A DNA stretch of 20,813 bases from a virus, in the IMG/VR virus record IMGVR_UViG_3300042914_001064, positions 1 to 20,813 of that record; one strand, given 5' to 3'. Both the position numbers and the translations under genes were made by a program. Positions 4,747 to 20,801 of this stretch are shown here, one piece after another. A model generated the notes under the pieces. That model saw nothing but the letters and a program-made list of their open reading frames with translations. It had not been told where the DNA came from and made no database searches. Every line of letters begins with the position of its first letter. Position 1 is the first letter of the stretch.

Positions 4747-6783
4747 ATGGCATACGGGAAGAAATATACTTTCACGGCAATAAGCAAATCAGGGTTAACC
4801 TATGATGCTGAAATATGGGAAAATGATTACACAGGTTCCGTGTATAGCGTAGCCACAGGAAATAGTCCTTTTTTGTTAGAGTGCCTTGCTTCCGGTGATG
4901 ATCCTTTTCAGCCCGTACTTCCTACACTATTTACCATAAGAGCGGATTTTACCGACTTTACAGGCCCATACCCAGACCTTGTTTCAACAGACGATAAAAA
5001 GTACTATGTAAGATTTTCGGCCAATGGTGGCACTTATTTTATATGGCAGGGGTATGTCTTAATGGATAGCATTAGCATAGCTTTTACAACGGGCAGAAAC
5101 TTTGTTGATATTATTTGCGTGGATGGGTTAGGATTGCTTAAATCAGTACCATACGTTCCTACATCTGCAAATATCAACACATCCGAATCATTACTGCAAA
5201 TCATTCGCAACTGCTTAAAGAATATTGAATTTCCGGTGCAGTACTATATCAATTCGGCAATCAATTACTATGCAACGGCACATAGTACATCAACATCATA
5301 CATTCGCAATACTCACATCTTCCCTGCCCGTTGGACTAATAACGATTATACTTATAAGAACTGCTATGATGTACTCGAAGATATTTGCATTGCTCACGGT
5401 GCGCAAATATATCAATCGGGTGGGGAATGGTGGATAACTTCCGTAAATGAAAGAGCATCCGATACTATTCGGGTATTCCGTACAGATGGGGTATCTTCGA
5501 CAGATACCTTATCGAATGTACCTATAAATAGAACTATTCAGCCGTATCAAGATAATGGGTCAGTACCATTTTACTTTGTAGAAAATAGCCAAACCAAAAT
5601 AATCAAAAAGTCATTTAATTCGCTTGAACTTACCGGAGAATTAAAGTACCCTGAAAATACAGTTGACAATGGCAACATGGCATTGCTTACTTCCGGTGTT
5701 CCTACGAATTGGAGTAGAACATTGGGAAGTGGTGGCACATTTGTAATGGGGCCGGAAAGCGGTGTATATGGTGCAAGGTTTACATCCGGAAGTACTCAAT
5801 CAACATTTACTGCTTTATCATGCGGCCTTGTAAGTGAAGGGGATATTTTAGAAATAGAGTTCCAATGTATTACTGCATCAACGGGCGACATGGAAATAGG
5901 GATAAGCGTTACAAGCGGTTCCACCGTGTATGCTTGGGGGAGGTTGGTATCTGGTGCGCCTGAATGGTTCAATAGTTTTCTATATTTTGAAGAACCGAAA
6001 AACAATACAGCGTTAGAAACTAAAACCATTATCACAAATCCATCGCCAATCACAGGAACTTTATCAATAGAATTTAGGGTTACTTCTGCAGGTATATCTA
6101 ATATGTTTGTGGCAAATGTGAAAAGAAAAGCAAAGTCAGTGTATGGCCCTAAACAAGTTTTATTTAATCAAACGGCAAGTAATCAGTATAAGAAACAAAT
6201 AACAACTCCTATAGGTAATCAGTTTCCGTTATTAAACGTCACGCAACTTCAATCGCTTTTGTCTGTAACAGATAATGCTTTAACTGGATTCACTCGATTC
6301 GGCATTAGCGGGAGTTATTCAAACCTTGCAACATTGTTATTTAGTCAGTTATACAACATCTATGCAAAGGCGAATATCAATATGCAGTTCACCCATTATA
6401 ATCTGTTTACGGGTACATACGTTGCAGGGTTGTTGCATACAATAGGGGTAGAGGATCCATCGGGTGTTATTAATGTTAATACATCAAGGTTCATTTTAGG
6501 ACAATGTACTTTTGATTACATTAACAATACTTTGTCAGGTACGGCAATCCAAACGAGGAATGAAATATTAACCTATACACTTATTTCATCATTGCAGGAA
6601 ACCCCACCTGTGCCATGTTACAAGTACTATAATTATACGGGTGATTTTTGGTCGGGTGAATACACAGATTGTGAGGGACTTCCGAAAGTTGCATTAACTT
6701 TGCCACCAGATCAATTCATTTGCTCTAAAACTACACCGGTGCCTTATGGTATTGATTCATTAACAAAAGGAGAACTCTGCTAA
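4747..6783 (+). CDS. Tail tip / baseplate hub-type structural protein
   Basis: This 678-residue protein directly follows the tape measure gene, the usual place of distal-tail and hub proteins. The first 110 residues (YTFTAISKSGLTYDAEIWEND to FIWQGYVLMDSISIAF) look like a beta-rich Dit-like N-terminal domain. Residues 115-235 contain NFVDIICVDGLGLLKSVPY and NCYDVLEDICIAHGAQIYQS followed by GEWWITSVNERA, a pattern I associate with hub-like tail proteins of Bacteroidota phages. Residues about 300-450 look like a carbohydrate-binding-module-type beta sandwich (SGVPTNWSRTLGSGGTF onward), which could bind glycans. There is no peptidase or lysozyme motif. The hub assignment comes from order and general resemblance, not from a diagnostic motif. 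Confidence 0.55.
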   Translation: MAYGKKYTFTAISKSGLTYDAEIWENDYTGSVYSVATGNSPFLLECLASGDDPFQPVLPTLFTIRADFTDFTGPYPDLVSTDDKKYYVRFSANGGTYFIWQGYVLMDSISIAFTTGRNFVDIICVDGLGLLKSVPYVPTSANINTSESLLQIIRNCLKNIEFPVQYYINSAINYYATAHSTSTSYIRNTHIFPARWTNNDYTYKNCYDVLEDICIAHGAQIYQSGGEWWITSVNERASDTIRVFRTDGVSSTDTLSNVPINRTIQPYQDNGSVPFYFVENSQTKIIKKSFNSLELTGELKYPENTVDNGNMALLTSGVPTNWSRTLGSGGTFVMGPESGVYGARFTSGSTQSTFTALSCGLVSEGDILEIEFQCITASTGDMEIGISVTSGSTVYAWGRLVSGAPEWFNSFLYFEEPKNNTALETKTIITNPSPITGTLSIEFRVTSAGISNMFVANVKRKAKSVYGPKQVLFNQTASNQYKKQITTPIGNQFPLLNVTQLQSLLSVTDNALTGFTRFGISGSYSNLATLLFSQLYNIYAKANINMQFTHYNLFTGTYVAGLLHTIGVEDPSGVINVNTSRFILGQCTFDYINNTLSGTAIQTRNEILTYTLISSLQETPPVPCYKYYNYTGDFWSGEYTDCEGLPKVALTLPPDQFICSKTTPVPYGIDSLTKGELC

Positions 6784-15340: not shown

Positions 15341-15450
15341 TAGTCAGGACAGGATTCGAACCTGTATGAAACTATGTTAAAGTCCATTTTCACTTGTTAA
15401 CTTAGTGTAGTTTCTAAACTCGTCTGCGTCTACCATTCCGCCACCTGACT
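15341..15450 (-). tRNA. Aberrant Leu-like tRNA / tRNA-like RNA gene, 110 nt
   Basis: Read leftward, the RNA has a perfect 7-bp acceptor stem (AGTCAGG with CCTGACT), a Leu/Ser-type D arm (GCGGAATGGTAGACGC), a perfect T arm (ACAGG, loop TTCGAAT, CCTGT) and discriminator A as in tRNA-Leu; CCA is not encoded. Between D and T arms lie 60 nt, too many for a normal anticodon arm plus variable arm. I tested every offset for a 5-bp stem with 7-nt loop and found none; the closest has four pairs and a G in place of U33. Instead, GAAACTA (15408-15414 on the - strand) pairs with TAGTTTC (15368-15374) around an inner hairpin. It is either a degenerate tRNA or a tRNA-like RNA with another use. Confidence 0.6.
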
Positions 15451-18865: not shown

Positions 18866-19120
18866 ATGACACAAAACCAAATAGGAGAATATATTAAAGA
18901 TGCCGTATTTCCGCAGAATGTTGAACATCCTAATGGCAATGTTACTTCTTTAGGCTTAACCAAACGTGAATACTTTGCAGCAATGGCAATGCAGGGATAT
19001 ATTGCAAGCGGTTTAATGGACAGATGCGGTGAGAAAACTCTTGCATTGCATTCAGTAACGGCAGCCAATGCTTTGATTAAAGCATTAAACAATACCGATA
19101 ATCCAAACTTACAACCATAA
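18866..19120 (+). CDS. 84-residue conserved phage protein (LTKREYFAAMAMQG)
   Basis: The segment GLTKREYFAAMAMQGYIASG near residues 30-49 is a motif I recognise from small proteins of many tailed phages, including those of Proteobacteria, but no function is known to me. The preceding part (IGEYIKDAVFPQNVEHPNG) and the C-terminal helix TAANALIKALNNT complete the family's layout. It sits eight bases after the previous stop and its stop lies seven bases before the tRNA-like gene at 19128. Confidence 0.6.
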   Translation: MTQNQIGEYIKDAVFPQNVEHPNGNVTSLGLTKREYFAAMAMQGYIASGLMDRCGEKTLALHSVTAANALIKALNNTDNPNLQP

Positions 19121-19127
19121 CACGGCA

Positions 19128-19219
19128 GTCATGTTAGCGTAATCGGGAATGAATACCGACTTGGGATAACGCCTTCGCATTGTAGCGGAGAGATGCGGGT
19201 TCGAGTCCCGTACATGGCT
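19128..19219 (+). tRNA. Aberrant tRNA-like gene (Thr-TGT-like) with a hairpin inserted in the D loop
   Basis: The acceptor stem is GTCATGT with ACATGGC (7 bp, one wobble), the T arm GCGGG, TTCGAGT, CCCGT, and the variable region AGAT. The D stem GCGT (19137-19140) and ACGC (19169-19172) encloses 28 nt, of which 17 (TCGGGAATGAATACCGA, 19143-19159) form their own 4-bp hairpin. Without it the RNA would be 75 nt with a normal D loop holding GGG. The anticodon arm is CTTCG with CGGAG (5 bp) and a loop of 8 (CATTGTAG), or 6 bp with a loop of 6; taking U33 as 19180 gives anticodon TGT (Thr). CCA is not encoded. Confidence 0.6.
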
Positions 19220-19254
19220 CTAAATCACACCGGCTCTGATTATCCGGCGAATCA

Positions 19255-19554
19255 ATGGCAACACTAATCAATGCCTACATCACAAAGGCAAAACTTGAAC
19301 AACTGCTGCAACAAGCAGACAAAGGAGTGGCTTTCACAATCGCAGTAAATGATGAAGCGAATGCCTACAATCAGAATGTATCTCTTTACCTTTCGCAGAC
19401 AAAGGAGCAAAGGGAATCGAAAGAACCTAAGACCTACTTTGGCAACGGGGCGGTTGTGTGGACTGACAACAAGGTAACACTTGCACCGAAGAAAGATGTA
19501 CCTGCTGAAAACAAGGTAGTAACTCCTAATTACAAAGGAGATCTCCCATTTTAA
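19255..19554 (+). CDS. SSB-like single-stranded DNA-binding protein
   Basis: A 99-residue protein with a compact N-terminal part (INAYITKAKLEQLLQQADKG, then VAFTIAVNDEANAYNQNVSL and FGNGAVVWTDNKVTLAP) and a flexible, polar C-terminus ending in NYKGDLPF. The final acidic-hydrophobic tip ending in D-(L/I)-P-F is the protein interaction tail of bacterial SSBs. This, plus the nearby RecT-like gene, supports an ssDNA-binding role. The core does not show a clear OB-fold signature by eye, so the assignment leans on the tail and context. An intrinsic terminator follows. Confidence 0.5.
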   Translation: MATLINAYITKAKLEQLLQQADKGVAFTIAVNDEANAYNQNVSLYLSQTKEQRESKEPKTYFGNGAVVWTDNKVTLAPKKDVPAENKVVTPNYKGDLPF

Positions 19555-19793: not shown

Positions 19794-20801
19794 ATGACAC
19801 ACGGATCATTATTCAGCGGAATTGGCGGCTTTGATTTAGCTGCCGAATGGATGGGATGGGAAAACGTATTCCATTGCGAATGGAACGATTTTGGACAAAA
19901 AGTATTACATCATTACTGGCCTAAAGCAATTTCATATCATGACATCACTAAAACAGACTTCACTATTCACAGAGGAAAGATTGACATCCTCACAGGTGGA
20001 TTTCCTTGCCAACCGTACTCATCAGCCGGAAAACGAAAAGGCAAAGAAGATGAACGACATCTCTGGCCGGAAATGCTGCGAGCAATTAGAGAAATTCAAC
20101 CACGTTGGGTTGTGGGCGAAAATGTTCTCGGCCTTGTTAATTGGTCAGGGGGATTGGTATTCCACGAGGTGCAAGCTGACCTGGAAGCTGCGGGGTACGA
20201 AGTTTGGCCGTATGTACTGCCAGCTGTATCCGTTAACGCTCCCCACAGAAGGGATAGGGTTTGGTTTGTTGCTAAAAACACCAAGTGCGATGGATTCATA
20301 TTCGGAGAACCTAATGAAGAAAGAGCAGAAATTCGGGAATTCAGGAACGCTTGCACAGGAAGTTCAGACGGGGTTTATTTATCAGAGGGGCCTACTCCCC
20401 ACCCCAACGGCAATGGATTCAACCAATGCAACGGCAACAATGAAAAGCAGCCAAGTAAAGGAGGGTTCAATGCACTCGGTAACGCTGACACGGGCAATGA
20501 GTATGGGAATGTTGCCGACACCATGCGCAACGGACAGCCCGGACAAAAATACGGGCAAACGAGCGCAGGACGGTTTACAGAAAAGAGCATTCCAAACGAC
20601 TGGCAAAACTTCCCAACTCAATCCCCTGTTTGTTCTCGAAATGATGGGATTTCCTCCCAACTGGACGGAATTACCTTTTCTAAATGGAGAAACGAATCAA
20701 TCAAAGCAGCCGGAAACGCTATAGTACCGCAAGTCGTTTATCAAATCTTTAAAGCAATAGAGCAATATGAAACACTACCCCGAATGGCGGATTCGATATA
20801 A
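19794..20801 (+). CDS. C5 cytosine DNA methyltransferase, main (alpha) chain
   Basis: A 335-residue enzyme that transfers a methyl group from S-adenosylmethionine to cytosine C5. Motif I is LFSGIGGFDLA (residues 6-16), motif IV GGFPCQPYSSAG with catalytic Cys72, motif VI VVGENVLGL with Glu109, motif VIII APHRRDRVWFVA (149-159), and motif X AGNAIVPQVVYQIFKAIE near the end. Residues 165-285 are Gly/Asn-rich and hold no motif IX (R.LT.rE..rlqgFP). In this same DNA a second conserved-looking protein is encoded in another frame and supplies a motif-IX-like segment. The ATG at 19794 starts directly before motif I; a start at 19749 adds residues from the preceding gene. It may protect phage DNA against host restriction. 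Confidence 0.9.
   Translation: MTHGSLFSGIGGFDLAAEWMGWENVFHCEWNDFGQKVLHHYWPKAISYHDITKTDFTIHRGKIDILTGGFPCQPYSSAGKRKGKEDERHLWPEMLRAIREIQPRWVVGENVLGLVNWSGGLVFHEVQADLEAAGYEVWPYVLPAVSVNAPHRRDRVWFVAKNTKCDGFIFGEPNEERAEIREFRNACTGSSDGVYLSEGPTPHPNGNGFNQCNGNNEKQPSKGGFNALGNADTGNEYGNVADTMRNGQPGQKYGQTSAGRFTEKSIPNDWQNFPTQSPVCSRNDGISSQLDGITFSKWRNESIKAAGNAIVPQVVYQIFKAIEQYETLPRMADSI
19939..20724 (+). CDS. Methyltransferase beta chain nested in the +1 frame of the alpha gene
   Basis: This frame lies wholly inside the methyltransferase gene and encodes 261 residues from the ATG at 19939. It is not a typical shadow: it starts MTSLKQTSLFTEERLTSSQV, continues DFLANRTHQP, KCCEQLEKFNHVGLWAKMFS and CKLTWKLRGTKFGRMYCQLY, carries three TPxAxDS repeats, and ends LNPLFVLEMMGFPPNWTELP. 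That last segment resembles the motif IX / target-region FVEWMMGFP..W known from C5 methyltransferases and their partner chains, and the main frame has no motif IX. The arrangement is like M.EcoHK31I and M.EaeI, where a beta chain with motif IX is encoded in another frame of the alpha gene. An earlier in-frame ATG at 19891 is also possible. Confidence 0.8.
   Translation: MTSLKQTSLFTEERLTSSQVDFLANRTHQPENEKAKKMNDISGRKCCEQLEKFNHVGLWAKMFSALLIGQGDWYSTRCKLTWKLRGTKFGRMYCQLYPLTLPTEGIGFGLLLKTPSAMDSYSENLMKKEQKFGNSGTLAQEVQTGFIYQRGLLPTPTAMDSTNATATMKSSQVKEGSMHSVTLTRAMSMGMLPTPCATDSPDKNTGKRAQDGLQKRAFQTTGKTSQLNPLFVLEMMGFPPNWTELPFLNGETNQSKQPETL

Follow-up and report, generated by a model that had tools for sequence, protein, structure and literature searches.

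What does a phage gain from an RNA that has the body of a tRNA, an additional hairpin in the D loop and no readable anticodon? The question is raised by positions 19,128 to 19,219 of an IMG/VR contig of 20,813 nt, the whole of which we refer to as the window. A sequence-only reading of this DNA had proposed a discrete 17-nt hairpin at 19143–19159. These coordinates turned out to be exact, and 65 distinct sequences, carried by about 90 IMG/VR contigs of 4–167 kb, share the architecture.

Standard tools give a mixed picture of the element. The Rfam tRNA model matches exactly 19128–19219 with 32.6 bits (gathering score 29), and tRNA is the only Rfam 15 family that the RNA matches above the gathering score. 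ARAGORN in tRNA and tmRNA mode calls nothing anywhere in the window; with no tmRNA call and just 92 nt of RNA, a tmRNA was rejected. The thermodynamic fold includes the inserted, anticodon and T hairpins at an unremarkable z of −1.2. The comparative evidence was decisive for judging the RNA real. Its parts are as follows.

19128–19219, + strand: whole tRNA-shaped and almost certainly non-decoding RNA, 92 nt, cloverleaf
19128–19134/19212–19218, + strand: acceptor stem, 7 bp; 7 of 7 pairs covary, 98.3% of alignment cells paired
19137–19140/19169–19172, + strand: D stem; 92.6% paired, GUAA invariant in the alignment
19141–19142, + strand: A14 and A15, directly 3′ of the 5′ strand of the D stem
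19143–19159, + strand: D-loop hairpin, 17 nt, TCGG-GAATGAATA-CCGA; compensatory changes at 4 of 4 pairs, 100% of cells paired
19160–19168, + strand: remaining D loop with a G18G19-type GGG and A21, assigned by sequence; G/R-TA conserved in the family
19174–19189, + strand: anticodon-arm replacement; 5-bp stem (19174–19178/19185–19189) covaries, no usable anticodon
19179–19184, + strand: anticodon loop ATTGTA, 6 nt in normal tRNA framing; length and sequence not conserved
19190–19194, + strand: variable loop GAGAT, whose final base U48 is able to pair with A15 (Levitt pair)
19195–19211, + strand: T arm with loop TTCGAGT; 5-bp stem covaries, 99.4% paired
19219, + strand: N73, a T
19220–19224, + strand: 3′ trailer CTAAA without encoded CCA; C74 and A-rich, like ordinary tRNAs of related phage arrays

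A family held together by compensatory change

Relatives were first retrieved via neighbouring proteins, an approach that is unbiased towards the RNA sequence. Two pattern scans of IMG/VR then extended the set to the 65 sequences, from which one chance match (L100) is excluded. As both scans demanded the hairpin loop, a third one was run that fixed only the scaffold and left this loop free. The family signature, GUAA followed by a D-loop hairpin and G-N-UAAC inside a cloverleaf, is present in the window RNA. The family covariance model R1 scores this RNA with 83.2 bits (E 1.1e-15) and family members with 72–98 bits. In the two bacterial chromosomes that gave matches, no host tRNA exceeds 44.7 bits. 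There is one copy per record searched whole, except for the record of L149, which carries two in tandem.

Can the fold be followed across divergent members? In an alignment of 34 diverse sequences 97.2% of cells are paired, and 19 of 23 pairs show double changes. The covariation score amounts to 0.859, against 0.233 for shuffles and 0.065–0.175 for slid structures. Compensatory changes are seen in the acceptor, D, anticodon and T stems as well as at every pair of the inserted hairpin. Without a supplied structure, RNAalifold predicts the acceptor, D-loop hairpin, anticodon and T helices and leaves out the D stem. Features of the L shape are kept too, namely U8, A14, A15, the G18G19 region, U48 (a U in 62 of 65 sequences) and the T loop, so the bases for the elbow contacts of elongator tRNAs (U8–A14, A15–U48 and G18G19–T loop) are present.

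A decayed phage tRNA pseudogene would account for the silence of ARAGORN, but every arm compensates across the 34 sequences, and the RNA is retained while flanking genes are exchanged between relatives. We regard decay as practically ruled out, in agreement with the earlier suspicion that the locus reflects more than damage. That reading had named two observations that would speak against a tRNA shell serving another purpose: a normal tRNA at this place in relatives, and loss of acceptor and T-stem pairing. Neither appeared; no relative found carries a normal tRNA at the locus, and both stems are kept through compensatory change. The idea of a repurposed shell thus gains support from the sequence comparison.

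Judged by its sequence relationships, the window RNA belongs to a virus-encoded RNA family that is both widespread and strongly conserved. tRNA-like noncoding RNAs are known as a broad kind; this family is apparently undescribed, and no description of it was found in the open-access literature searched.

A tRNA body without an anticodon

While the body of the molecule is preserved, the decoding end tells a different story. The anticodon arm retains a covarying stem, whereas the loop is mostly 3–6 nt long, unrelated in sequence between members and without a consistent anticodon; the pattern of U33 and purine 37 is absent as well. A 7-nt loop with U33 and a conserved anticodon, as expected for an elongator tRNA, was looked for, and the window copy has 6 nt. 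The sequence-only reading had offered a loop of 8 or 6 nt. The shorter version stands, and the longer one falls since it requires opening a stem pair that the closest relatives keep. The comparison that it had called for likewise gives two answers: the D-loop hairpin is conserved, the size of the anticodon loop is not. A threonine anticodon (TGT/UGU), its best guess, finds no backing, as the loop varies and ARAGORN reads only a 2-base anticodon, 'tg', from the window copy after removal of the hairpin in silico. Across the family the same operation yields either anticodons of 2 bases or amino acids that disagree with each other. An anticodon placed by ARAGORN at about position 33 was also considered and rejected; it is not conserved, given that the closing pairs of the D-loop hairpin covary.

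Some members depart from the short arm. In L128, L149, L321, L332, L340, L356, L359 and L363 the anticodon arm is longer and contains an inner hairpin as well as a CUUAA-like segment. A canonical 7-nt loop, CTCATAA with the anticodon CAU, is found only in the near-identical L362 (9448–9537, − strand) and L381 (4875–4964, + strand), which are the exceptions to the loss of the elongator pattern. Their loop is perhaps close to the ancestral state, and because of it some members might decode, or might have done so until recently.

Is the family then a set of unusual working tRNAs, for threonine (UGU) or for frameshifting, that tolerate an expanded D loop? The complete cloverleaf, the normal elbow and the CAU loop of L362 and L381 would be in line with this, but most short-arm members have an anticodon loop of 3–6 nt with no consistent anticodon, and neither the U33/purine 37 pattern nor a conserved discriminator is seen. 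The discriminator is T in 22, A in 19, C in 15 and G in 9 of the 65 sequences, and the 1–72 pair is mostly A-U. The free variation of discriminator and acceptor sequences speaks against a retained synthetase identity. A working tRNA is very unlikely on these grounds. The loss of the anticodon together with the gain of an extra hairpin points to a role other than the translation of codons, and the alignments indicate that these RNAs are almost certainly tRNA shapes without an anticodon that serve a non-translating role.

The D-loop hairpin as an exchangeable module

Across the 65 sequences the loop of the D hairpin is GAATGAATA in 39, GAATAAATA in 22 and AAATAAATA in 4. It thus reads GAAURAAUA in most members, a dominance that partly reflects the loop-keyed scans that retrieved them. 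The closing stems differ around nearly the same loop, with TCGG/CCGA, CCGG/CTGG, GCAG/CTGC, CCGA/TCGG and GTGG/CCAC all being observed. The scaffold-only scan provides a view free of this bias: among 36 distinct sequences, 28 carry an AAURAAUA-type loop and 8 carry other hairpins at the same site with their pairing partners present. Further types of D hairpin were seen beyond those 8.

How does such variety arise? Close relatives that share the rest of the RNA show replacement of the whole hairpin, as in immuto and L388 compared with L322. The route to Flavobacterium phage immuto was its helicase, 98% identical to the one encoded by contig L346. The immuto member, at 20247–20330 of MW353175, scores 58.1 bits with the family model and has an alternative D-loop hairpin. 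It and the RNA of L322 are nearly identical once the hairpin and the anticodon stem are left aside, from which we conclude that the hairpin was swapped as one unit. The immuto RNA is annotated as tRNA-Cys (20246–20331, the same as L505 15247–15332), a name that looks like an artefact. These RNAs go unnoticed by tRNA finders or are assigned a wrong amino acid, cysteine in immuto and Lys, Glu, Leu, Pyl or ??? in the family studied here.

The D loop is a possible site of introns in archaeal tRNAs. The discrete insertion of 17 nt and this precedent could suggest a small intron whose splicing would yield a normal tRNA. However, the RNA keeps non-decoding anticodon loops when the hairpin is taken away, the hairpin is the best-paired helix, the sequence offers no bulge-helix-bulge and the hosts appear to be bacterial, all of which makes an intron highly improbable. 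An excised 17-nt piece, which had been proposed as something to look for, is unlikely as well, because removal restores no decoding tRNA and would discard the best-paired helix.

Genomic neighbourhood and distribution

In the window the RNA follows an 84-aa ORF that stops at 19120 and precedes a 99-aa ORF that starts at 19255; it sits within a rightward run of genes that includes a RecT-like gene and a DNA methyltransferase. Throughout the family the nearest ORF is co-oriented with the RNA in 54 of 64 cases upstream and 50 of 59 downstream, counts in which small ORFs may be spurious; median gaps are about 21 nt from the upstream stop and 37 nt to the downstream start. A further small hairpin, CCGG-CTCTGATTAT-CCGG, lies at 19230–19247, downstream of the RNA and ahead of the next start codon. 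It seems to be conserved by pairing, since its counterparts in relatives have CTGG/CCAG or similar pairs.

In large phages the RNA is found at the 5′ end of, or within, arrays of at least 20 ordinary tRNAs. These are mostly followed by a C-A-rich stretch after N73 without an encoded CCA, and most RNAs with the D hairpin are built likewise. The similar trailers point to a shared 3′ maturation.

Such an arrangement invites a reading in cis, in which the cloverleaf acts as punctuation: it would mark cuts by RNase P and RNase Z and provide the downstream mRNA with a defined 5′ end, while the excised RNA would have no job of its own. Sense orientation, tight spacing, varied neighbours and the tRNA-type trailer all agree with this. 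A plain cloverleaf would suffice for the purpose, though, and the nearly invariant hairpin, its covariation and wholesale replacement, as well as the position beside tRNA arrays, are left unexplained. Punctuation in cis therefore seems unlikely to us.

Where do these RNAs occur? The only resemblances of a 678-aa protein of the window (4747–6783) are weak ones, to proteins of Cellulophaga and Flavobacterium phages that mostly carry structural annotations; they suggest that the host probably belongs to the Bacteroidota. Using strict filters and sampling part of this phylum, no host or prophage copy was found at E ≤ 1e-8 in about 690 genomes (395 of the phylum and 295 of one class within it, a few of them shared). 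In a pattern scan of genome contigs the matches listed looked chance-like by eye, and the subset that was checked gave no family-level covariance-model score. No named phage with the GAAURAAUA hairpin was found, and among named phages the alternative hairpin of immuto turned up only in the immuto phages at the sensitivity of that search. Plasmids yielded no family member, and no protein partner shared across lineages was found within 8 kb of the RNA.

What might the RNA do?

The account that we favour, with about an even chance of being right, is that of a non-decoding, tRNA-shaped phage RNA that is excised like a tRNA and mimics tRNAs in trans, the D-loop hairpin serving as its recognition handle. 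It is the simplest way to accommodate a retained tRNA body, a missing anticodon and a hairpin at the elbow that is kept yet exchangeable. It builds on direct observations: the architecture, the covariation, the loss of the anticodon, the location on the sense strand, the tRNA-type trailer and the distribution among phages. From these we infer the maturation, the three-dimensional shape and the action in trans. The RNA would be co-transcribed with adjacent phage genes in an operon and excised by host tRNA maturation enzymes, with RNase P generating the 5′ end and RNase Z or exonucleases together with CCA addition the 3′ end. It would then fold into an L with an intact elbow, in which the anticodon arm serves as a structural stem only and the hairpin between A15 and G18 juts out as a specific recognition handle. 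Acting in trans, it might occupy a host factor that binds tRNAs, most likely one involved in translation, tRNA processing or tRNA-directed phage defence; the identity of this partner is a matter of speculation.

More tentatively, and with less than even confidence, the tRNA elbow could be a delivery scaffold for swappable hairpins that act in trans against host processes depending on tRNA or against tRNA-directed immunity, the swapping of hairpins being the trace of an arms race. If true, the D-hairpin RNAs and the tRNA-like RNAs with a hypervariable core described below would form a toolkit of tRNA mimics in Bacteroidota phages.

The exchangeable hairpins could also be read as the modules of a tRNA-scaffolded RNA with a regulatory or antisense role, in which the loop of the D hairpin or the anticodon loop pairs with host or phage RNA. 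The conserved, accessible 9-nt loop and the hypervariable core of the companion family would suit such a function, but the anticodon loop drifts in length, unlike a guide that is kept. We consider this distinctly unlikely.

tRNA genes are frequent in phages and their role is debated; a conserved RNA consisting of the body only implies that some of these phage genes have nothing to do with codons. For the trans-acting mimic, a cultured phage–host pair exists in immuto and Flavobacterium sp. LMO8, which carries a member and makes maturation, partner and fitness effect directly testable.

Comparison with known RNAs

Several systems use a tRNA fold outside of decoding. mascRNA and viral 3′ tRNA-like structures employ it for processing or mimicry, in eukaryotic lncRNAs or at the genome ends of RNA viruses, respectively. 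They resemble the phage RNA in this non-decoding use of the fold; to our knowledge neither has a D-loop hairpin module. YrlA-type bacterial Y RNAs, which are mentioned in PMC7790460, are noncoding RNAs with a tRNA-mimic module, another likeness, and are bound by a Ro/TROVE protein via a separate stem. A bacterial Y RNA was rejected as an identity for the window RNA: TROVE is encoded in none of 30 phage records, many of them fragmentary, while a control in Deinobacterium was positive, and no Rfam Y RNA match was obtained.

Another relative in kind is tRNAOther, a pseudo-tRNA of Bacillus cereus adjoining a genomic island, which is poorly charged and stays off polysomes, yet has a phenotype (PMC3399842). 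Both are small tRNA-like RNAs without a role in translation, as far as can be inferred for the phage RNA. tRNAOther is, however, a single Bacillus RNA with a readable Trp anticodon and described without a D-loop hairpin (PMC3399842), whereas the phage RNA belongs to a phage family with compensatory evolution. Phage noncoding RNAs that adjoin tRNA genes are also represented by GOLLD and ROOL, which lie near tRNA islands, form RNA cages and have an unknown function (PMC12286853). They are much larger and unrelated in structure, and the window RNA gives no Rfam match to them. Phage tRNAs with altered anticodon loops evade host defences that cut tRNAs (PMC10264068; PMC11555353). Their diverging anticodon loops, possibly due to an arms race, recall the family described here, but those tRNAs still decode, whereas the D-hairpin RNAs have no anticodon and an additional hairpin in the D loop.

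Companion RNAs

A second tRNA-like gene of the window (15341–15450, − strand) is of another family, whose ends, AGTCAGGTGGCGGAATTGGTAGACGC...TACAGGTTCGAATCCTGTCCTGACTA, are near-constant and whose middle of 45–70 nt is hypervariable. This type also occurs in L066, L083, L065, L106, L140, L117, L344, L346, L348, L149 and L369, and several phages have it in the vicinity of the D-hairpin RNA. The middle of the L140 copy could form a pseudoknot. In L128 (312–1076) a hypervariable tRNA-like RNA, a predicted tmRNA (485–845) and a D-hairpin RNA follow each other in tandem.

Plainer forms exist as well. L013 (819–888, − strand) encodes a related 70-nt tRNA-like RNA that scores 54 bits with R1, has no D hairpin and carries the 6-nt loop CTCATA; L168 (4568–4637, − strand) contains one of the same kind. 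Both lie about 3 kb upstream of the D-hairpin RNA and on the other strand, at roughly the place that 15341–15450 takes in the window.
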